DNA of 64,000 nucleotides from SAR116 cluster bacterium. GTDB lineage: Bacteria; Pseudomonadota; Alphaproteobacteria; Puniceispirillales; Puniceispirillaceae. The notes below the pieces were generated by a model that worked only from the letters and a program-made list of their open reading frames with translations, had not been told where the DNA came from and ran no database searches. Shown piece after piece: positions 26,758 through 56,849 of this stretch (its first letter is position 1; each line of letters begins with the position of its first letter). Made by a program: the position numbers and the translations under genes. Location of the stretch: the NCBI GenBank assembly GCA_004212735.1, contig SHBD01000001.1:124001-188000 (forward strand), in the 5' to 3' direction.

Positions 26758-28163
26758 TGCTGTTTCGCCTCATCTGGCTGGTTGTTTTTCTAGTTCTCGC
26801 GGCGGCGAGTGCCAACTGGTTGATGGGGCAGCCCGGCCGGATGCAGTTGGAATGGCTCGACTGGCGCATTGAGATCCGCACCAGCCTTGCGGTTGTTCTG
26901 TTGATCATGCTGTGTTTTCTGCTGATTTTTGCTGATCGGCTGTGGCGGCGGCTGGTGACTTTACCGGGGTGGCTTGGACGCAATATGAGGCGACGCCGTG
27001 GCGCTGCTGGGCATAAGGCACTGACCCTTGGCCTGATGGCGGTCTCGGCAGGGGAAGCCAGCGAGGCAAAGCGGCAGGCGATGTGGGCGCAGCGGCTCCT
27101 GGATGCGCCACAACTGACAGATTTACTCTCGGCGCAGGCAGCGCATTTGGCTGGTGATAATCGTGCCGCTGGCCGTTACTTTCAGTCGCTCACAAAGGCA
27201 CAGGATACCGCCTTTCTTGGCCATATTGGCCTTGCCCGCCTTGCCCATGAGGGCAATCGTTTGGATGAGGCTCTAGCTGCCGCACGGCGCGCCTTGTCAC
27301 TCAAACCAAAATCAGCAATGGCTGCTGCTCAGGTTCTGCATCTGGAGGCGGCGCGCGGCAATTGGTCCGATGCCGCACCGGCCTTGGAGGTGATGATTGC
27401 TGCCAAAAACCGTACCGGCCCGCAAAATGACACGCCGCGTGCTCGCAGCCGGCAGAAGGTGGCGCTGGCCTATTTGCAGGCAAGACCATTTTTTGATGGA
27501 GATCACAACGAACAGACATTGAATAGGATATCCGAGAAGGAGGCTGTCCGCCAGTTGCGGTTGGCACTTGCGACAGATCCTGGTTTCTGGCCGGCGGCGA
27601 TTCTCCTGGCAGATTTTTATTTGCGAAAAGGCCAACGGCGAAGGGCAGCAAAGATACTTGAAACCGGATTTTCTGCGGTGCCGCATGCGCTTTTCAGTGA
27701 TCGGCTGAAACAGGCGTGGAAGGTAAATGAGGGGGCGTTCGTGGCCAAGTTTATAAAGCTTGCCAGTAGCACCGGCCATGCCCATGCTGCCGAGGCAGAG
27801 ACATTGGCCGCCGATGCGGCGCTGGCGGCAGGTCTCGAAGGAGAGGCGCGCCGGCTTCTCGACGGTATTGCTCAGGCGAAGCGTGATGTTGTGACGTGGC
27901 AGCTCATTGCGCATCTTGCTGAGATTGGTGAGAACAGCACTGAGGCAGCAATGGCCCTGCGCGCTGCAGGAGGCGCCATTCGACCACGTGGTTGGCAATG
28001 TCAGACCTGCCATGTGATGAGCGCAGAATGGCACAGCCACTGCCTGAGTTGTGAGGGCTTTGCAACGCTTGAATGGCAGCGGCCTGATCATCTGACCCCT
28101 CTGGGGCTGGCGGATGACAGGGCAGTTGAAAATTTGACAAAAGGCAAAGCCGCCGATGATTGA
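26757..28163 (+). CDS. hemY: HemY-type TPR membrane protein
   Basis: A 468-residue protein with two N-terminal membrane helices (about 3-24 and 43-62), the HemY N-terminal domain and tetratricopeptide repeats (AARRALSLKPKSAMAAAQVL and others). The C-terminus carries a four-cysteine zinc-ribbon-like element, CQTC...CLSC, seen in alphaproteobacterial HemY. Despite its name this is not protoporphyrinogen oxidase; a scaffold role in heme or membrane biology is presumed. Start overlaps the mic60 stop. Confidence 0.88.
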   Translation: MLFRLIWLVVFLVLAAASANWLMGQPGRMQLEWLDWRIEIRTSLAVVLLIMLCFLLIFADRLWRRLVTLPGWLGRNMRRRRGAAGHKALTLGLMAVSAGEASEAKRQAMWAQRLLDAPQLTDLLSAQAAHLAGDNRAAGRYFQSLTKAQDTAFLGHIGLARLAHEGNRLDEALAAARRALSLKPKSAMAAAQVLHLEAARGNWSDAAPALEVMIAAKNRTGPQNDTPRARSRQKVALAYLQARPFFDGDHNEQTLNRISEKEAVRQLRLALATDPGFWPAAILLADFYLRKGQRRRAAKILETGFSAVPHALFSDRLKQAWKVNEGAFVAKFIKLASSTGHAHAAEAETLAADAALAAGLEGEARRLLDGIAQAKRDVVTWQLIAHLAEIGENSTEAAMALRAAGGAIRPRGWQCQTCHVMSAEWHSHCLSCEGFATLEWQRPDHLTPLGLADDRAVENLTKGKAADD

Positions 28164-28217
28164 ACCCTGAGCTGAAACAAGATATACGGTCATGCGTTCA
28201 CGCGCCTCACGCGCCAT

Positions 28218-28291
28218 GCCCGCTTAGTTAAATGGTATAACGGGTCATTCGTAATGATTAATTGGGGGTTCGATTCCCTCAGCGGGCACCA
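28218..28291 (+). tRNA. tRNA-Thr (anticodon CGT)
   Basis: The 74-base sequence folds as a full cloverleaf. The acceptor stem is GCCCGCT/AGCGGGC, the D stem GTTA/TAAC, the anticodon stem GGTCA/TGATT around loop TTCGTAA with anticodon CGT (reads ACG, Thr), the variable loop AATT, the T stem GGGGG/CCCTC with loop TTCGATT, and the 3' end A-CCA is encoded. Its last 14 bases recur in inverted orientation at 30363-30350, making this the probable integration site of a mobile element. Confidence 0.95.
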
Positions 28292-28346
28292 CTTCTTCAT
28301 GCACATGACTGATATGTAGGCACTAATTGTGCTAACAGGTCAGGTG
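28278..28346 (+). repeat. tRNA 3' end plus leader, copy A (attachment-site-like)
   Basis: Begins with the last 14 bases of tRNA-Thr and continues about 55 bases beyond. It matches copy B (30363-30295, opposite strand) at 59 of 69 positions, 38 of the first 40 being identical. The flank ends with the leader TGTGCTAACAGGTCAGGTG. Downstream the leader runs into a five-codon frame (ATG at 28356, stop 28371-28373) that resembles a decayed start of an integrase gene. Confidence 0.8.
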
Positions 28347-28369
28347 ACGTACAGAATGACGTATGCGCA

Positions 28370-28849
28370 ATGAATGATTTTCTGATTATTGTTATTGCGG
28401 GTTTTTTTTCCTGTGTTGCTTTAGACTTTTTTGGCCGTGCCTTGCTGATCTTATTTAAAATACCCGAACCTTCATGGGGTGTTGTTGGTCGTTGGGTTTT
28501 CTACATGGTCAGGCGTGGAACGGTCTTCAACCCACAGATTTCAGATGCCGTGCCAATCGCTTATGAAGTAAAAATTGGTTGGGCTTTCCATTATCTCATC
28601 GCTGTCGTTTGGGCTGTTGCGTTTCATATATTCTTCGTTGGTTATCCATTATTTGAGTTATCCTATAAAAATGGGCTGTTATTTGGGGCATTAACTACGC
28701 TTGCTCCATTATTTATTTTCATGCCTTTCACTGGTCAGGGGGTGCTCGCACGAAAAACTCAAATGCCTTTGTTGACTTCGCTAATTCTGCTAGCACGACA
28801 TTGCGTTTTTGGGTTAGCCATGTTTGAGGCGTTCAGTTGGTTCCACTAA
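28370..28849 (+). CDS. DUF2938-family membrane protein
   Basis: A 159-residue protein with about four membrane helices. DUF2938 signatures are the early ALDFFGRALL, then PSWGVVGRWVFYM and the C-terminal PFTGQGVLARKT. The family is widespread in proteobacteria with no assigned role. The start overlaps the stop of a five-codon leader frame in repeat copy A. Base composition is more AT-rich than in the core genes to the left, as expected for acquired DNA. Confidence 0.8.
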   Translation: MNDFLIIVIAGFFSCVALDFFGRALLILFKIPEPSWGVVGRWVFYMVRRGTVFNPQISDAVPIAYEVKIGWAFHYLIAVVWAVAFHIFFVGYPLFELSYKNGLLFGALTTLAPLFIFMPFTGQGVLARKTQMPLLTSLILLARHCVFGLAMFEAFSWFH

Positions 28850-29207
28850 CCCGTCAACAATCAATCTGTATAACAGCACATTTATAATACCTACGTAGGT
28901 GGGTATGGTTCCTGCCTACCAATCTTATAGATATATGTATCTGTAGTAGGTCCTTTCTATTACCAGACGATTTCTGAATGGGTAGGTAAGTTATGATGGT
29001 CACATGTCTTGGCATCGCAATAGCAAGCGAAGGCGCAATTGCTATCAAAGTATACACAGACGTGCCGTGTATGACACTGTGAGGCTCGATGACGGCCTCT
29101 GGCCTCGTCACAGACCAAATTTTACCAGAACATCTTCTTGAGGCTTCTGCGTGTCAATTGAAAAGCTGAAATTATTGAGGGCGCATGCTTAAGCTATTCT
29201 CAAAAAA
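28850..29207. other. non-coding stretch, AT-rich, with a 12-base palindrome
   Basis: I see no convincing gene here. ACCTACGTAGGT at 28889-28900 is a perfect palindrome, and nearby GTAGG and CCTAC words can form a larger hairpin. The rest looks like decayed island DNA. Confidence 0.4.
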
Positions 29208-29651
29208 TCAGAGTTTTTCTTCTGAGCCTAAAAATTGATCTGACTCTCTTGCTAACTTTTCAAAAACCGCAAGCGCATCATCAGAACCAAGTCTCTTCAA
29301 TGCGCCAGCTTTAACCTCATCTTTTGTCCACATCCAACTTTTGTATGGATCAAATTTCATTGCCCAAGAAGCAAAAAGCCTTCTTCCTGTAATTTCATCC
29401 CTTAGCTTTTGAATCTCGAGGTGACGGTTATCTGTCAAAATTTTTTCATACAGATTATCAATAGCTTCTGGTGGCCCTTCTAAAATTTGAAAAAAAAGAT
29501 CAGATCTGCAAATTAAATTGCCAGAAACACCCCAGGCAACATTATTTTTTCGAGATGAACGCAAGATTTTTTTTAGAATCGTATCGCTGAAAAAAGTTGG
29601 CTTAGACGCATAAATCACGTGTTTCAGTTCTTCTTGCTTACCTCTTTTCAT
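29208..29651 (-). CDS. BLUF-domain blue-light sensor
   Basis: A 147-residue single-domain BLUF protein that should bind FAD and respond to blue light. Key residues are present: Tyr14 (HVIYASK), the Asn pair 36-37 in SRKNN, Gln55 in FFQILEG, and Trp96/Met98 in FASWAMKF. About 45 residues follow the core, enough for a capping helix but no output domain, so it must act through a partner. The ATG at 29651 has TGGAG nine bases upstream. It lies in the tRNA-associated accessory region; no partner gene is adjacent. Confidence 0.88.
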   Translation of the reverse strand: MKRGKQEELKHVIYASKPTFFSDTILKKILRSSRKNNVAWGVSGNLICRSDLFFQILEGPPEAIDNLYEKILTDNRHLEIQKLRDEITGRRLFASWAMKFDPYKSWMWTKDEVKAGALKRLGSDDALAVFEKLARESDQFLGSEEKL

Positions 29652-29791
29652 AGCCTTCATCTCCAGAGTATAGGGAACGAGGCTAGTGTATATTTGCAAC
29701 TTTGGCAAATTCTTGACCTTTCCAACTCAACCCCCATCTGTCTTGCTACCCAACAATATACTACCCACACGCCCCACTGGCTGGCAATGGC

Positions 29792-29965
29792 AATGTTGTG
29801 CATGGATTAAGGCATAGCCTTAGAGACAGGCTACGTACCGTTGAGTGTCCATCAGACATCATTGATGCCATTGGAGGATGGACAACAACAGGCATCGGCC
29901 ATGCTTATGGCAATGGCTATGGTGTGGATGTGATGGCTAAATGGATGACAAAGATTGAATGCTAA
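29792..29965 (+). pseudogene. C-terminal fragment of a tyrosine integrase
   Basis: The frame ending at the TAA at 29963-29965 encodes HGLRHSLRDRLRTVECPSD followed by IIDAIGGWTTTGIGHAYGNG and a short basic tail. This is the C-terminal catalytic part of tyrosine recombinases: the box II HxLRH with its Arg, the IGGW/GIGH block and the nucleophilic Tyr in HAYGNGY. About 57 residues remain; everything upstream is missing, so it is a remnant. Confidence 0.82.
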
Positions 29966-29968
29966 AGT

Positions 29969-30262
29969 TTACTCAGCCACACCTTCAATAATCATGAAAT
30001 CAGTGTCAGAACATTCCTCTCTTACAGCTTTTGCGGCCTGATACTCTTCACTATGGTAAAAAGTATCTGCAGCCTCTTTGCTCTCAAACTCAATCATCAT
30101 AACGATGCCACTGACATCGCCTTCAAGTCTGTCGGCGCCCGGACCACGAGCAAGCACTTTACCACCATATTTTTTAATGGCTGGCCCCGCCATGCCTGAA
30201 AATTTTTGAAACTTGTCTTGGTCCGTGACCCTGATGTTCGCAACTACATATCCCTTAGCCAT
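29969..30262 (-). CDS. DUF1330-family protein
   Basis: A 97-residue DUF1330 protein, a small dimeric alpha/beta-barrel fold of unknown role. Motifs are GYVVANIRVTDQDKFQKF, GGKVLARG, IVMMIEFESKEAADTFYHSEEYQ. The ATG follows GGAAGG. Its upstream region is the leader of repeat copy B, the same leader that precedes the integrase N-terminal fragment, so it occupies a position where an integrase gene would be expected. Confidence 0.87.
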   Translation of the reverse strand: MAKGYVVANIRVTDQDKFQKFSGMAGPAIKKYGGKVLARGPGADRLEGDVSGIVMMIEFESKEAADTFYHSEEYQAAKAVREECSDTDFMIIEGVAE

Positions 30263-30294
30263 TTAATACCTTCCAATCTTGAAAATTAACTACA

Positions 30295-30363
30295 CACCTG
30301 ACCTGCCAGCACATAAAATGCTGACATATCAGTGATGTACATGAAGAAGTGGTGCCCGCTGAG
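30295..30363 (-). repeat. tRNA 3' end plus leader, copy B (inverted)
   Basis: On the minus strand this starts with CTCAGCGGGCACCA, the 3' end of tRNA-Thr, followed by the same flank as copy A. The full tRNA is not present. It leads into the DUF1330 gene. Together copies A and B bracket 28.3-30.3 kb as inverted repeats. Confidence 0.8.
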
Positions 30364-30471
30364 AACAATGGTTCCTCCACTAGGCACGTACATGAACAGC
30401 TACGTAAGCACCACAGCCAGTTTACGCATCAGTGACTCATCGTCAACAGGCGCATTCTGTACGTCAGTTTG

Positions 30472-30510
30472 TGTGCTGGCAGGTCAGGTGAGGTACAGGA
30501 TGGTGTACAC
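30472..30510 (+). repeat. integrase leader, copy C
   Basis: TGTGCTGGCAGGTCAGGTG is identical to the leader in copy B and differs at two bases from copy A; the following GTACAG-ATG resembles copy A. It holds the ATG (30500) of the integrase N-terminal fragment. Confidence 0.7.
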
Positions 30511-30676
30511 TCAATACCCTCATATCTGCATCCTATTTGGCATCTATCACTTTGTCAGGCGTGTTCCTGCTGACCTTCGGCTGCACTATCGCAGTGACAG
30601 GGTGAGCATCAGCCTTCGCAGCAAGTTAGCCAGAGCAGCATCGGGTCTACCATGTCCATCAGATGTAGTTGCCTAA
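30500..30676 (+). pseudogene. N-terminal fragment of a tyrosine integrase
   Basis: The frame from ATG 30500 to TAA 30674-30676 encodes 58 residues, including YHFVRRVPADLRLHYRSDRV then SISLRSKLARAA. This is the N-terminal DNA-binding region typical of alphaproteobacterial phage-type integrases (DUF6538-like, with the FVRRVPADL block). The frame breaks after this, and no catalytic part follows before the next operon. It could belong to the same family as the C-terminal fragment at 29792-29965 but lies downstream of it, so the two cannot be one simple interrupted gene. Confidence 0.75.
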
Positions 30677-30682
30677 AGACAT

Positions 30683-30707
30683 TGTCATTCTTGTCATTTG
30701 TGTCATT
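30683..30707 (+). repeat. three TGTCATT repeats at nine-base spacing
   Basis: TGTCATT occurs at 30683, 30692 and 30701, a perfect nine-base period, 66 bases before the PanB-like gene. It could be a regulator-binding array or a chance short tandem repeat. Confidence 0.35.
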
Positions 30708-30772
30708 GGGATGCTCTAATTCTTCACCAAAATGAAAGAGTTTATGAAAGAGACTTGTGAGGAGACGCGAAG

Positions 30773-31606
30773 ATGAAATCTGACACCAAACCGATTTACA
30801 CGTGGGATGCGAAGCCATCCCGCCGGAATTTAACGGCAGCAGATATCAGAGCATGTAAGGGAAACAAAAAGTTAACGCAGACAACCGCGAACACTGTTGA
30901 AGAAGCGTCGGCTGCGGCAGATTCTGAAATCGACATGCTCATTTGTGGTGCCTCCAACGTGAGTCTTGTGCGTCGAGGCGCGCCTTATAATTTTCTCACT
31001 GCAGCTTTGACCATTCCCGATTACCCAACGGATGATGACATTCTTCGCGGCGCTCTAAAGGCGCTACAGAATGGTGCTGACTCAGTCATGACCGCGCGCC
31101 GATTGGCCGTTGTGGAAATGTTGGCAAGAGAAGATATACCGGTAATGGGTCATCTGGGTTTGGTGCCTCGCAAATCAACGTGGCGAGGTGGTCTGCGTGC
31201 TGTTGGCCGGACGGCGAATGAGGCCCTTGAACTAATGCAAGATTTCCGCGATTTGGAAAATGCTGGTGCATTCTCTGTGGAAGCCGAAGTCATTCCGGCG
31301 GATGTTCTCGCCGTTATCAGCCCGCAAACATCGCTGATAACGGTGTCACTTGGGTCTGGACCGGGGGGTGACGTGATGTATTCGTTTCAGAATGACATAT
31401 GTGGTGAAAACCCCTTGCCACGTCACGCGCGCGCCTTTGGCGACCTCGCCGCAATCGCGGCCCAGATGGCAACAGAACGCCGCGCTGCCTTATCAGCCTT
31501 TCGTGTCGCATGTATGGAGGAAAGTTTTCCGGGGCAGGCAGAAAATGCGAAAATTCCAGAAAAAGAGTTGGATTTGTTTCTTGCGGGTTTGGAGGACAGC
31601 AATTGA
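30773..31606 (+). CDS. PanB-like protein (PEP mutase/ketopantoate hydroxymethyltransferase superfamily), divergent
   Basis: A 277-residue TIM-barrel protein resembling ketopantoate hydroxymethyltransferase: ADSVMTARRLAVVEML, IPVMGHLGLVPRKSTWRGGL, the catalytic-base region VEAEVIPADVL (Glu172, matching PanB Glu181) and LGSGPGGDVM. By my alignment the PanB metal ligands are gone: Asp45 becomes Ala60, Asp84 becomes Ala78 and Glu114 becomes Ala108; Lys112 becomes Met. It is therefore unlikely to make pantoate. It precedes a split thiamine-diphosphate decarboxylase and probably acts on the same 2-oxoacid. Start ATG 30773 follows GGAG. Confidence 0.72.
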   Translation: MKSDTKPIYTWDAKPSRRNLTAADIRACKGNKKLTQTTANTVEEASAAADSEIDMLICGASNVSLVRRGAPYNFLTAALTIPDYPTDDDILRGALKALQNGADSVMTARRLAVVEMLAREDIPVMGHLGLVPRKSTWRGGLRAVGRTANEALELMQDFRDLENAGAFSVEAEVIPADVLAVISPQTSLITVSLGSGPGGDVMYSFQNDICGENPLPRHARAFGDLAAIAAQMATERRAALSAFRVACMEESFPGQAENAKIPEKELDLFLAGLEDSN

Positions 31607-31706
31607 CAAAAATGCCCATGGCAGGATGTCTTATCAGTCTTATAACTCTTTTCAAGACTGCCCCAGCGTGTTGTTGTTAACTGTTTAATGTTGTGTGGGA
31701 GACACC

Positions 31707-32228
31707 ATGAGTCACCAAAACAAAGAAGACAAAGGCGCGATGCTCCTGCCTCTTTTGAAGGAGCATGGGGTAGATTTCCTACCTTTCGTTCCTGATGCTG
31801 GGCACGCAAGTCTCATCGAGTTGGCCTTTGATGATCCTCACATCCAGCCTGTCGTCCTTACAACAGAAGAAGAGGGTGTTGCGCTTGCCTGTGGCCATTG
31901 GTTGGGAGGAAAAAAATCCGTTTTATTGATGCAGTCAAGTGGCGTTGGCAACACAGTCAACATGTTGTCATTGATCTCGAACTGCAATTTCCCTTTTGTT
32001 GCTCTGGTTACGATGCGAGGCAATTTTGGGGAATTCAACTCTTGGCAAGTGCCAATGGGACGGGCAACCCCGGATGTTCTGACGGCAATGGGGATACAGG
32101 TATATGTCGTTGAAAGAGATGACGAGCTTCCCAAGGCTGTCGATTCTGCGCTCTATTCTGCTTTCTCAAGTGATCAAGGCGTAGCTGTTCTTTTGTCTCA
32201 AAATTTGATTGGTAGAAAGGAATGGTGA
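31707..32228 (+). CDS. thiamine-diphosphate decarboxylase, alpha (PYR) subunit, sulfopyruvate/phosphonopyruvate type
   Basis: A 173-residue PYR-domain subunit like sulfopyruvate decarboxylase ComD or the N-terminal half of phosphonopyruvate decarboxylase. It shows the catalytic Glu cluster TTEEEGVALACG (Glu54-56) and LLMQSSGVGNTVNML, the family signature. The pocket stretch FGEFNSWQVPMGRATPDVL aligns with the ComD substrate region. ATG 31707 follows GGGAG. Its stop overlaps the beta subunit start. The substrate is a small 2-oxoacid, not decidable from sequence. Confidence 0.85.
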   Translation: MSHQNKEDKGAMLLPLLKEHGVDFLPFVPDAGHASLIELAFDDPHIQPVVLTTEEEGVALACGHWLGGKKSVLLMQSSGVGNTVNMLSLISNCNFPFVALVTMRGNFGEFNSWQVPMGRATPDVLTAMGIQVYVVERDDELPKAVDSALYSAFSSDQGVAVLLSQNLIGRKEW

Positions 32229-32800
32229 TGCTCAAACGGCGGGACGTTACGGCTAAGCTAAATGATATGCGGGGGGAGTCTCGAATCATATCTGGCTTGG
32301 GTTCCTCAACCTATGATCTACATTCCACTGGTGATACGGATCATAATTTCTATCTGTGGGGGGCAATGGGTGGCGCGGCAATGGTCGGTCTTGGCGTTGC
32401 AATGGCTCAACCGGATAGCAACGTCATAGTCCTGACTGGTGATGGCGAAATGCTGATGGGGATCGGCTCTCTTGCGACAATTGGGGTGCAAAAACCTGCA
32501 AACCTGTCTGTAATCGTGCTTGATAACGGTCATTTTGGTGAAACTGGCATGCAAGCCAGCCACACAAATTCATGTGTCGATTTGGCAAAAATAGCGGCAG
32601 CTTCAGGTTTTAAAAGGGCTGAGACTATTGAGACAGAGCAAGAGCTCGAACGTTTTTTACAGCTTTTTCAAGATGCGTCTGGACCCTCTTTTGCCGCAAT
32701 AAAGGTGGAACAGGAAGCCCCGCCACGCAGCCTGCCTATTCTTGACGGCGTTGAATTGAAAAACAGATTTAGAAGGACGTTTAATCTCTTTCCGAAATGA
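32228..32800 (+). CDS. thiamine-diphosphate decarboxylase, beta (PP) subunit
   Basis: A 190-residue PP-domain subunit partnering the alpha gene. The cofactor-binding motif GDGEMLMGIG (residues 71-80) runs to the metal-ligand Asn100 in VIVLDNGHFGETG; WGAMGGAAMVGLGVA lies before it. Together the pair reconstitutes a ComDE-type enzyme converting a 2-oxoacid to an aldehyde and CO2. AAGGA precedes the start; an in-frame ATG six bases upstream is possible. Confidence 0.85.
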   Translation: MLKRRDVTAKLNDMRGESRIISGLGSSTYDLHSTGDTDHNFYLWGAMGGAAMVGLGVAMAQPDSNVIVLTGDGEMLMGIGSLATIGVQKPANLSVIVLDNGHFGETGMQASHTNSCVDLAKIAAASGFKRAETIETEQELERFLQLFQDASGPSFAAIKVEQEAPPRSLPILDGVELKNRFRRTFNLFPK

Positions 32801-33040
32801 TCGGGGAAACGCTGCTTGGGGTCACGCCAAATGGATGGCCAGAGTATACTAGGATGGAAAGGTGTTTATCCTTTATGGCTGTCCAGCGATGCCCAGCCAA
32901 TTCACGTTCAGATACAGATTTGAAGGTTTGGGTAAGGATAACAGGTTAAATCTTTTCTTTGTCCTTACTGTTTCATAAGGCTTAAAATTCTCATTCCAAA
33001 TTTTTACGTAATTGTCGGCTTTATCGGGGAGCATTCATCT

Positions 33041-33373
33041 ATGTCTAAATCTGTTATCACAAGTTACACACTTATGGACTTCTTGTCTGAGGCTGACATG
33101 TTGGCTTTTCTATCATTTGCCGAAGAAAGCATGCAGGCACATGCCAATAATTTGAGAGCCAATGGAATGACGAAGTTTTACATTTCAAGAGTTTTCAACA
33201 AGGGCGACAAATTCACTATAGGAAATTGGCTTGAGTATGAGGACCAGGAGGCTTACGTCGCGTGCGACAAAATTTGGCAAAAATTCCTTAGCGATAGTGA
33301 TAATGAAAATAAATTTAATTTTATCAGCAAAATCGTTCCGTATAGGGGAATTGTTCAGTACGACTTTAGCTGA
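33041..33373 (+). CDS. small cytoplasmic protein, function unknown
   Basis: A 110-residue soluble protein preceded by GGGGAG. It has no signal peptide or membrane segment. The pattern of alternating strands and helices, and the mid-protein NWLEYEDQEAYVACDKIWQK, suggest an alpha/beta-barrel (ABM-like) fold, but this is weak. It is separated from the decarboxylase operon by 240 bases with no visible terminator. Confidence 0.6.
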   Translation: MSKSVITSYTLMDFLSEADMLAFLSFAEESMQAHANNLRANGMTKFYISRVFNKGDKFTIGNWLEYEDQEAYVACDKIWQKFLSDSDNENKFNFISKIVPYRGIVQYDFS

Positions 33374-33533
33374 CGCCCACCGGGTTTTTCAGCACGTGCC
33401 AGATCCAGGGCGGCAGACAGTCCGGTAAAGTTACATCCGCTCCTAGCGATATCAGCAGGCTCATCTCCACCCGTGGGATGTGATGGAAATGTGCAACGGC
33501 TATCACAGGCTCTACAGCTTCAGGGGCTGACAT
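33366..33533 (-). CDS. possible 55-residue small protein overlapping nei
   Basis: From ATG 33533, inside the last codons of the Nei gene, a frame of 55 codons reads to TAA 33366-33368. It encodes MSAPEAVEPVIAVAHFHHIP, then RVEMSLLISLGADVTLPDCL and a Trp-rich end PPWIWHVLKNPVGVS. Composition is protein-like and it fills the gap between two convergent genes, but no ribosome-binding site is clear and I know no homologue. Confidence 0.35.
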   Translation of the reverse strand: MSAPEAVEPVIAVAHFHHIPRVEMSLLISLGADVTLPDCLPPWIWHVLKNPVGVS

Positions 33534-34297
33534 GTTTCACATACGAATGCGCGCCGCCCGTTGATCTCGAAACGTCGAATGGCGTCCTTACACGTCGGAC
33601 AATTATCCTTTGCAAAGATGTTGACGCGCTCGCGATAGCGGCTTTTTGACGGGCGTGCACCAGCTATGGTGATGATCGCATTGTGTTTTACGCCGAGCGC
33701 AAGCAGCGCCTTTGCGTCGTCCCAAATTCGATCAAATGTCTGCCGGTCGACAGCTCTTCCGGGTGTTTCGGGGTGAACCGATTGGCGCCATAGAATTTCG
33801 GACCGATAGATGTTGCCAATCCCTGACATCACTGCCTGATCCATGATCAGCCGGCCAATGGGGGCTTTGCTCTTTGATATTCTTGCATATGCGAGATTCG
33901 GCTTTGCATCGGCGCGAAGCACGTCGGGTCCTATACGGTCGGTTAATGAAATGAACTCATGAGGGGCCAGAACCTGACAGATGGTTGGCCCATTGATATC
34001 TATCGCGTGCGTGTCGCCGACCAGACGCACGCGCACCGCACCGCGCGGTTCAGCCAAAGGCAGTTTATGTTTTCGAATCCGGCCGAACAAACCGAGATGG
34101 ATGTGAAGCACATCGCCCTCATCAAAACGATAAATGAGGTGCTTGCCAAATGCCTCAACAGCAAGACATGGTCGCCCGGATAGCAGAAGCGCTCCGTCAG
34201 CAAAACGCCCTTGTGGTGAAGAGATAGTCAGCTTTTGCCCGGCAAACAACCGATGATGGTCGCGTGCTGCGCGATGAATTGTATGGCCCTCTGGCAA
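33512..34297 (-). CDS. nei: Fpg/Nei-family DNA glycosylase (endonuclease VIII type)
   Basis: Base-excision repair glycosylase/AP lyase of 261 residues. The N-terminal PEGHTIHRAARDH gives the catalytic Pro2 and Glu3. The helix-two-turn-helix is VMSGIGNIYRSEILW, and a C-terminal zinc finger CPTC...CETC carries the intercalating Arg in GRRAFVCETC. The start codon must be TTG at 34297, because Pro has to follow the initiator Met; GGGGAGG lies six bases before it. The Nei branch is favoured by PEGHTIHRA rather than PELPEVE. Confidence 0.92.
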   Translation of the reverse strand: MPEGHTIHRAARDHHRLFAGQKLTISSPQGRFADGALLLSGRPCLAVEAFGKHLIYRFDEGDVLHIHLGLFGRIRKHKLPLAEPRGAVRVRLVGDTHAIDINGPTICQVLAPHEFISLTDRIGPDVLRADAKPNLAYARISKSKAPIGRLIMDQAVMSGIGNIYRSEILWRQSVHPETPGRAVDRQTFDRIWDDAKALLALGVKHNAIITIAGARPSKSRYRERVNIFAKDNCPTCKDAIRRFEINGRRAFVCETCQPLKL

Positions 34298-34315
34298 TAA
34301 GTCCTCCCCGCGTTA

Positions 34316-34594
34316 GTGAAATGTTACTCTAAATTTTGGCGGCTCATAGGGTTAGGTAACGTTGCATCCCAGCTGCATCAAGCCCCCAACTCCGAATCCT
34401 CAACCCTGACCACCAGCTCAGAATCCCAGTCCAGAATCCCAGTCCAAGGCACGGACTCACAGGCACAATTAAAATTGTTGGATGAAGAATTCCGTGAGCA
34501 CATGGCTGAAGGGTTGCGCGTGCTTCTTAATCTTTGGGCGAATAAATTTGTTCAACCTTGGGGTGGTGGAGTGCTGGTACCCGTCAGATGGTAA
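34316..34594 (+). CDS. doubtful open frame with internal tandem repeat
   Basis: A 92-codon frame filling the gap between nei and the LysR gene. The C-terminal half (EEFREHMAEGLRVLLNLWAN) looks helical, but there is no good ribosome-binding site, the middle is a low-complexity Ser/Thr/Gln stretch made by a 13-base tandem repeat, and the end overlaps the LysR stop. It may be a remnant rather than a gene. Confidence 0.25.
   Translation: MKCYSKFWRLIGLGNVASQLHQAPNSESSTLTTSSESQSRIPVQGTDSQAQLKLLDEEFREHMAEGLRVLLNLWANKFVQPWGGGVLVPVRW
34419..34446 (+). repeat. 13-base tandem repeat
   Basis: CAGAATCCCAGTC occurs twice in direct succession (34419-34431 and 34432-34444), followed by the first two bases of a third unit. 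Confidence 0.8.
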
Positions 34595-55695: not shown

Positions 55696-55889
55696 GTCCG
55701 GTCCGGTTTTTCCGCCAGTGATCAATAAATTATGATTGCGTTGATGTGTTTTTGCCGGTTCAAATGAATCGGAAAAACGCGTTCCTGAGTCAGCCGGGTG
55801 ACATAGGCTGGTAACTCTGTCGGCCGTATTTTTCCTGACTATCCGGATCGGCATGATCCGCTTAACTAATCGCTGTCATGGGGGACAAA

Positions 55890-56849
55890 ATGACAACAGT
55901 TGGGTTTATTGGACTTGGGAATGTTGGGGGCAAGCTGGCGGGCAGCATCCTGCGCAACGGATTGCCACTGATGGTACGCGATCTTGACCGGGATGCCGCT
56001 GCGCCCTTTCTCGAGGCGGGTGCACAATGGGCTGACAGTCCGAAAGCAATGGCCGAGGCTTGCGACATTGTCATCACCTGTCTGCCGTCGCCTGCGGCGA
56101 GTGCGGCGGTGATGGAGGCAGATGACGGCATTTTAGCCGGTCTTTCTGCTGGCAAGGTCTGGGCAGAGATGAGCACCACAGATGAGGCTGAGGTGAAGCG
56201 TCTCGGGACGATGGTTCGTGCGGTTGGCGCGGACCCGGTGGATTGTCCGGTGTCAGGTGGCTGTCATCGTGCTGCCACTGGCAACATCGCCATTTTCGCC
56301 GGATGCGACAGGGATGTGTTTGATCGGTTGCTGCCGGTGCTTACTGTTCTTGGACGCCGTGTTCTGCATACCGGGCCACTTGGCTCGGCATCGGTCTTGA
56401 AAGTGGTGACGAATTATCTGGCAACAGCCAATCTGATCACGCTGTCTGAGGCGCTTGTCACCTCCAAAATGGCGGGAATGGACCTCAATGTAGCCTATGA
56501 GGCGATCCGTATTTCCTCGGGCAATTCCTTTGTTCACGAGACAGAAAGTCAGGTTATTCTGAATGGAAGCCGTGACATCAATTTCACCATGGACCTTGTG
56601 ATCAAGGATGTGAGTCTGTTTCAAGAGGTGGCTGACAGAGCTGGAGTGCCGCTGGAAATCTCGCCAAAACTGATTGAGATTTTCAAGGACGGGCAGGACC
56701 GTTATGGGCCCCGAGAATGGTCGCCCAACATCATCAAACGGCTCGAGGAGGCGTGTAATGTCGATATTCTGGCACCAGGCTTTCCAGCAGACATGGTCGA
56801 TGATGAACCCGAGGAACCGGGATATGAGGTGATTCCCAAGGGTCGCTAG
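55890..56849 (+). CDS. NAD-binding beta-hydroxyacid dehydrogenase (3-hydroxyisobutyrate dehydrogenase family)
   Basis: A 319-residue enzyme. The nucleotide motif VGFIGLGNVGGKLAGSILRNG opens the protein; the substrate signature DCPVSGGCHRAATGNIAIFA and the catalytic Lys in LKVVTNYLATANL follow. Possible substrates are 3-hydroxyisobutyrate, tartronate semialdehyde or similar. A somewhat longer acidic C-terminus (DDEPEEPGYE) is unusual. ATG 55890 has GGGGGAC upstream; ATG 55878 is an alternative. Confidence 0.86.
   Translation: MTTVGFIGLGNVGGKLAGSILRNGLPLMVRDLDRDAAAPFLEAGAQWADSPKAMAEACDIVITCLPSPAASAAVMEADDGILAGLSAGKVWAEMSTTDEAEVKRLGTMVRAVGADPVDCPVSGGCHRAATGNIAIFAGCDRDVFDRLLPVLTVLGRRVLHTGPLGSASVLKVVTNYLATANLITLSEALVTSKMAGMDLNVAYEAIRISSGNSFVHETESQVILNGSRDINFTMDLVIKDVSLFQEVADRAGVPLEISPKLIEIFKDGQDRYGPREWSPNIIKRLEEACNVDILAPGFPADMVDDEPEEPGYEVIPKGR

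Follow-up and report, generated by a model that had tools for sequence, protein, structure and literature searches.

What does an enzyme with the PanB fold do once the metal site of that fold is gone, and why does one such gene stand ahead of a split decarboxylase in a SAR116 cluster bacterium? We examined this for the gene at 30773 to 31606 of a 64-kb stretch of the genome (the window; positions 124001 to 188000 of contig 1 in the 2.49-Mb, 96% complete assembly G000), which is followed by two genes resembling ComDE, a thiamine diphosphate (ThDP) decarboxylase in two subunits. The gene was found to belong to a large, mainly alphaproteobacterial family that is derived from PanB, and the recurrent partner of this family is an oxygenase drawn from three unrelated classes. 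The genes of the trio are as follows.

30773 to 31606, plus strand: PanB-like gene, 277 amino acids, a PanB fold without the metal and keto-acid site, with a Shine-Dalgarno-like 'aggag' ahead of the ATG
31707 to 32228, plus strand: ComD-like ThDP N-domain subunit, 173 amino acids from the ATG at 31707 (alternative listed start, GTG at 31695)
32222 to 32800, plus strand: ComE-like ThDP C-domain subunit, 192 amino acids, overlapping the ComD-like gene by 7 nucleotides

The PanB-like protein matched PF02548 with an E value of 2.8e-31 (109.3 bits against a gathering score of 28.7); Pantoate_transf was its sole match at E<=0.1, and PF13714, the phosphoenolpyruvate (PEP) mutase/isocitrate lyase family, was not matched. 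An AlphaFold model built from 26 sequences (predicted local distance difference test, 91.6; predicted template modelling score, 0.83) was compared with known folds, and six PanB entries came top with Z scores of 25.2 to 23.7, followed by PEP-mutase/isocitrate-lyase enzymes at 15.5 and lower. An earlier note, made from the sequence of this DNA, had assigned the PanB fold and proposed structure prediction as a check; the PF02548 match and the Z scores of about 25 agree with that assignment and place PanB well ahead of the PEP-mutase-type enzymes. The protein did not reach the cut-offs of the panB models (70.3 against 207.55 bits for TIGR00222; 92.8 against 272 for NF001452), and a canonical panB is present elsewhere in the same genome (304 bits).

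In PanB, Asp45, Asp84 and Glu114 are the Mg ligands, with Lys112 in the site; the role of the metal is to stabilise the 2-oxoacid enolate, and Glu181 is the catalytic Glu, the proton acceptor for C-H deprotonation. The numbering of the Escherichia coli enzyme (1m3u) was carried over to the window protein through a phmmer alignment. In this comparison D84 is replaced by A78, K112 by M106 and E114 by A108, H136 and E181 are retained as H127 and E172, and the flap with D45-S46 is deleted together with the next ~20 residues. The earlier note had read the three ligands and the Lys as Ala, Ala, Ala and Met. This holds for A78, A108 and M106; the first ligand, D45, is gone by deletion and not by substitution, and an Ala at that position is a mere alignment choice because the D45-S46 stretch is missing (the D45 column is badly aligned, and the family alignment puts Gly60 of the window protein there). 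Residue columns were then read over 115 aligned members, the window protein and 114 others, leaving out the broken locus L024 and L183. Lys occurs in none of the 115 at the K112 column, Asp in one at the D84 column and in 15 at the poorly aligned D45 column; the E114 column is shifted for the canonical controls in the family alignment and was not used family-wide. The loss of the metal site and of the Lys is family-wide, not peculiar to the window protein. H127, E170, E172, H218 and R236 are each present in all 115 members, so that the catalytic Glu172, which had been noticed as kept in the window protein, is the equivalent of E181 throughout. H218 and R236 are found in none of 25 PanB-type controls, and the position of E170 is Val in 20 of these controls and Glu in the other five, the PanB-type paralogues L290 and L306-L309. 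The model predicts a strand that holds both E170 and E172 and a different one for H127, and these three residues may form a relocated metal site. What links the family to PanB (TIGR00222) is the fold, the H136 and E181 equivalents and a GHxGLxP motif common to PanB and the window protein; what separates it is the lack of D84, E114 and K112 equivalents, the deleted D45 flap and a different set of gene partners.

Family membership was defined by more than 240 bits to a profile of 20 rows (A2), the deleted D45 flap, and the residues H127, E170 and E172. The window protein, itself one A2 row, scores 409.7 bits, lacks the flap and carries the three residues. With own or centre genomes included, the family was found in 21 of 385 genomes of a class sample, in 18 of 398 genomes of a phylum sample, all within the window's class, and in 49 of 198 genomes of one sampled family. 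A contig scan gave at least 80 loci, of which eight were read as family by identity and the other 72 are without an A2 score. In a plasmid collection 604 records matched the window protein, canonical PanB included, and all annotated records among the 40 of the 604 matches listed are called 3-methyl-2-oxobutanoate hydroxymethyltransferase. Likewise, the family member was labelled as a pantothenate enzyme in each of 11 annotated regions that were opened, which members of the family most likely are not. No viral relatives of the window protein were found in IMG/VR in a search for close relatives. Matches of about 140-177 bits to A2, first counted as members, are PanB-type, as three such loci reached 250-255 bits with the panB model (cut-off 207.55); L290 and L306-L309 were moved to the controls. 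In these five, a second paralogue group, D45 and K112 are kept, the D84 position is Ser, Ala or Cys, and E114 is replaced by Gln; the group exceeds the panB cut-off (249.8 bits) and is possibly misnamed as panB too. Three Verrucomicrobia loci (L058, L059 and L060) carry the metal-less family at 284-286 bits, with no oxygenase neighbour detected, and at L215:7235-8940 the PanB-like genes form a tandem pair adjoining two apparent PhyH-like genes.

One member has been studied genetically. The second 'panB' of Rhizobium etli CFN42, RHE_PE00443 on plasmid p42e, was matched by place and length to RHE_RS26335, the only place found on p42e at E 1e-40. RHE_RS26335 scores 355 bits with the family profile and shares 40% identity with the window protein. 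According to passages of the report on this gene, a panB mutant of R. etli is auxotrophic despite RHE_PE00443, expression of RHE_PE00443 failed to complement the mutant ('data not shown'), 5 of 12 active-site residues are retained, and no metal domain was detected (PMC3082293). The missing metal site of this family has accordingly been noticed once before, in those passages (PMC3082293), and RHE_PE00443 was not found in the open-access PMC literature beyond that single report. The R. etli and window proteins are of the same family, and RHE_PE00443 adjoins MocD-MocE-MocF-type genes whereas the window gene sits by the ComDE-like pair. With these published genetics on one member as the evidence on function, the family is most likely not a ketopantoate hydroxymethyltransferase. 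That the window gene is an ordinary PanB wrongly held to be unusual would suit its PF02548 match and the database label, but it is hardly credible given the missed panB cut-offs, the canonical panB that the genome has besides, the lost metal and Lys residues, and a relative that, in the passages cited, did not replace PanB (PMC3082293).

The gene partners of the family were examined with searches for 17 reference proteins near 115 family anchors, which lie at 113 loci; L215 and L322 contribute two anchors each, the broken L024 was counted as an anchor, and L183, a fragment from genome G003 (182 bits), was left out here as in the alignment. An oxygenase (MocD-type FA_desaturase, FA_hydroxylase or PhyH) lay within 4 kb of 75 of the 115 anchors and of one of the 25 controls (Fisher p 6.6e-9), and, like for like within one sampled family, of 35 of 42 anchors and none of 20 canonical PanB loci (p 1e-10); both p values overstate independence, because the loci were picked by score and are related. 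By class, 51 anchors had a MocD-type gene, 17 an FA_hydroxylase and eight a PhyH, one anchor having two kinds, and the single control with an oxygenase was a PhyH at L309. The oxygenase was on the same strand in 73 of the 75 cases and within 500 bp in 61, and when the seven loci from which the reference oxygenases came were removed, 68 of the remaining 108 anchors were still oxygenase-linked. A Rieske ferredoxin lay within 4 kb of 51 of the 115 anchors and of none of the 25 controls; the Sinorhizobium meliloti ferredoxin scored above the TIGR02377 cut-off for MocE, and Pfam confirmed the six reference domains tested (oxygenase, ferredoxin and reductase). In a quick LG+G4 tree, thinned to 102 of 119 rows with 98 family rows, 70 of the 98 were oxygenase- or Rieske-linked, with 16 state changes, and PhyH, MocD and FA_hydroxylase swap within supported sub-clades. 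The window protein groups with standalone paralogues, and in its sister clade of six rows L053, L312, L056 and L311 are MocD-linked while L031 and L055 are not.

These neighbours can be compared with known oxygenase systems. A MocE-family ferredoxin, an FA_desaturase and a flavin adenine dinucleotide reductase, the parts of the MocDEF rhizopine system, recur beside family members, whereas the tested oxygenase components of that kind are lacking in the 64-kb window. The literature on MocDEF, as far as the texts consulted go, speaks of rhizopine catabolism, and no paper treating rhizopine and ketopantoate hydroxymethyltransferase jointly was found in the open-access PMC literature. The P450 system for oxidative O-demethylation of 6-O-methyl-galactose is a formaldehyde-releasing oxygenase in sugar catabolism but a different oxygenase, and the start of its abstract names no PanB relative (PMC10033563). 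Among the less diverged PanB-type paralogues, L308 (region L308:4661-6615) directly adjoins an O-demethylase of the VanA type (VanA_C Rieske) with a GcvT/DmdA-like GCV_T gene nearby, and L309 (region L309:5368-7361) seems VanA-adjacent too, as judged by N-terminal sequence. A PanB-annotated gene also occurs together with a glycine-cleavage T gene in the methanesulfonate monooxygenase region of Filomicrobium, in the part of the paper that describes it (PMC4433239).

Since the family stands so often beside oxygen-using enzymes, it probably handles something that these enzymes produce, which may be a one-carbon unit. We tentatively propose, at somewhat less than an even chance, that this clade of metal-less PanB derivatives takes over a hydroxymethyl or formaldehyde unit made by the partner oxygenases. 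The oxygenases would hydroxylate a C-H bond next to O or N to give a hemiacetal or hemiaminal, and oxidative dealkylation of the methyl ether or amine would yield a hydroxymethyl group or formaldehyde, which the PanB-like protein would accept, most simply onto tetrahydrofolate. The chemistry of PanB itself is hydroxymethyl transfer with tetrahydrofolate, its one-carbon carrier. Glu172, the invariant Glu170 and His127 would remain as acid-base groups, and with no enolate to stabilise, the Mg, its three acidic ligands and the Lys would be dispensable. With such a role the family would capture formaldehyde for the oxidative demethylases of rhizobia and marine roseobacters, which would explain how a PanB fold works without its metal; the association alone gives a misannotated family a testable class of function. 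In the window's genus the gene stands without such an oxygenase, and in four genomes it precedes a ComDE-like pair in a local arrangement that appears to be decaying in two.

In a second explanation, what the family acts on is the hydroxylated compound's carbon skeleton: a product resembling a sugar or cyclitol would undergo retro-aldol cleavage, isomerisation or hydrolysis, and no one-carbon unit would be handled. The fold neighbours that follow PanB are C-C and C-P bond enzymes, and the clusters of neighbouring genes within 4 kb, named by sequence reading, also speak for it: at the 113 loci there were 24 LacI-like, 18 Gfo/Idh/MocA-like, 16 sugar-ATP-binding-cassette-permease-like, nine DUF4432-like and nine sugar-isomerase-like cases, and none of these at the 20 control loci. 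Since oxygenases of three unrelated classes replace one another across the tree, however, a small common by-product seems likelier than a shared skeleton, and we regard action on the skeleton as a real possibility, if a doubtful one.

Several points besides the relatedness of the loci weigh against the transfer of a one-carbon unit. The retained equivalent of Glu181 could equally mean enolate chemistry on another substrate. Forty of the 115 anchors have no oxygenase within 4 kb, among them three Verrucomicrobia and L023-L030, which are all eight of the same-genus and near-paralogue loci; the MocD, FA_hydroxylase, PhyH and MocE references match nothing in the window, and the two FA_desaturase matches in its genome are both on other contigs. 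For three of the five less diverged PanB-type paralogues the neighbour list contains nothing of the VanA type. Demethylation of rhizopine by MocDEF is general background, and tetrahydrofolate is a putative acceptor; no family member is known to have an assigned substrate or activity. A gene of the window itself has a relative at one family locus: the beta-hydroxyacid dehydrogenase encoded at 55878-56849 (plus strand) scores 481 bits against the enzyme whose gene immediately precedes the PanB-like gene at L046 (Alisedimentitalea scapharcae), and it reaches no NCBIfam cut-off (best 171.5 against 397).

We then considered the ThDP pair. The likely ComD start, ATG 31707, is preceded by 'gggag' and leaves a gap of 100 bp after the PanB-like gene. 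The best model for the ComD-like protein is TIGR03845 (116.8 bits, cut-off 147.95), with TPP_enzyme_N also below threshold (24.9 against 26.8); for the ComE-like protein it is TIGR03846 (144.3 bits, cut-off 221.5), with NF004813 below (143 against 240) and TPP_enzyme_C above threshold (66.1 against 21.9). The phosphonopyruvate decarboxylase model TIGR03297 gave 73.8 bits for ComD and 129.2 for ComE against a cut-off of 312.5. A split ComDE-like decarboxylase next door, as described in the earlier note, is thus the best match, and the likeness to sulfopyruvate and phosphonopyruvate decarboxylases lies in these best models; the pair differs in falling below all the curated decarboxylase cut-offs, and the pathway genes searched for were not found. 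In the window genome PF13714 (PEP mutase) has no match and Xsc is not above its cut-off (390 against 676 bits), and no paper treating oxobutanoate hydroxymethyltransferase and sulfopyruvate decarboxylase jointly was found in the open-access PMC literature.

The trio was searched for in 61 genomes, the window's own and 60 relatives, at thresholds of at least 157 bits for the PanB-like protein and at least 179 bits for a close ComE. It was present in four (G000, G001, G003 and G004), all of one genus, so that the neighbourhood recurs in three further genomes but in none outside the genus. The PanB-like gene occurs in 21 of the 61 genomes and a close ComE in 23; both are present in nine, against 7.9 expected under independence, and lie on different contigs in five of the nine. 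Among the 115 family anchors, ComDE lay within 4 kb on only two same-genus contigs, to which the window and a fragment at the end of a same-genus contig are to be added. ThDP pairs often occur without a PanB-like gene, the G002 pair (76%) among them, and other pairs adjoin MttB-like, 3-oxoadipate, 2-oxopentenoate hydratase or aldehyde dehydrogenase genes, as read by sequence and not by family search. The order of the trio is constant across three flanking contexts: G003 has the window's downstream glycosylase and LysR genes, and G001 and G004 have others. Ratios of nonsynonymous to synonymous substitution rates between the window and G001 were 0.08 for the PanB-like gene, 0.15 for ComD and 0.08 for ComE. 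All four genomes have uninterrupted ComD and ComE genes, whereas the PanB-like gene contains a stop in G003 and in G004, not at the same place, and in G003 it is also truncated by the contig end; sequencing error is possible for these broken copies because the assemblies of G001, G003 and G004 are drafts, 57-73% complete. Within the genus the trio is maintained as a unit, with its PanB-like member being lost in two of four genomes.

The earlier note had proposed a route, in sulfonate, phosphonate or one-carbon metabolism, in which a 2-oxoacid is built or broken down by the PanB-like enzyme and then decarboxylated by the ComDE-like pair. The constant order in four same-genus genomes and the purifying selection on all three genes speak for such a route. 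It is nonetheless improbable, given a trio unseen outside the genus, co-occurrence without clear excess, a first gene broken twice while ComDE stays open, no PEP mutase and no Xsc above cut-off in the window genome, and the loss of the residues that bind the 2-oxoacid in PanB. As a general route it does not stand, and the oxygenase association weakens it further; the adjacency looks like a local arrangement. The note was correct about the oddness of the first gene, and its metal-less PanB fold, split ThDP neighbour and tRNA-linked region hold; oxygenases are a better-supported partner class than ComDE. A combined reading, in which a metal-free hydroxymethyltransferase family descended from PanB passes the hydroxymethyl group made by very different oxygenases to tetrahydrofolate, sugar-like compounds being oxidatively demethylated without free formaldehyde, and in this genus the ComDE-like enzyme may join the one-carbon unit to a decarboxylated 2-oxoacid, seems rather unlikely.

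The surroundings of the trio raise one more explanation. The features concerned are as follows.

28218 to 28291, plus strand: tRNA-Thr (CGT)
28278 to 28346, no strand: inverted-repeat arm 1, 69 nucleotides, the tRNA-Thr 3' end and downstream bases, 86% complementary to arm 2
29774 to 29956, plus strand: tyrosine-integrase C-terminus remnant (tblastn with the L034, L035 and L025 integrases, 57-59% over 61 amino acids, ~1e-21)
30295 to 30363, no strand: inverted-repeat arm 2, 69 nucleotides, a partial copy of the tRNA 3' end, an att-like scar ~0.4 kb 5' of the PanB-like gene
30539 to 30757, plus strand: weak N-terminus remnant of the same kind of integrase, with an internal stop (tblastn, 30-34%, E 2e-4 to 8e-4)
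33041 to 33373, plus strand: DUF6974 gene, downstream of the trio and not a fixed part of it

The integrase pieces flank the inverted tRNA-end copy on both sides, and the repeat and remnants are the scar of an integrated element that has apparently been rearranged, in keeping with the tRNA-linked accessory region described before. Integrases of the same kind also occur in G001, G018 and G025, on contigs that carry family members, which fits repeated mobility of the PanB-like gene. The gene could accordingly be a passenger of a mobile region here, adjacent to ComDE by chance and sharing the function of the standalone paralogues. Besides the remnants and the tRNA-end duplicate directly upstream, intact standalone paralogues with 84-85% amino acid identity to the window copy in G001, G003 and G004 point this way, those of G003 and G004 being intact where the trio copy is broken; but the order of the trio holds as its surroundings change, and selection on the copies of the window and G001 is strong, so we hold this explanation to be unlikely. 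The DUF6974 gene lies directly 3' of ComE in G004 and ~6 kb off in G001. Apart from the tRNA, no riboswitch or other curated RNA was found in window positions 28000-34500. The accessory stretch also carries a gene for a BLUF blue-light sensor (PF04940) at 29208-29708 on the minus strand.

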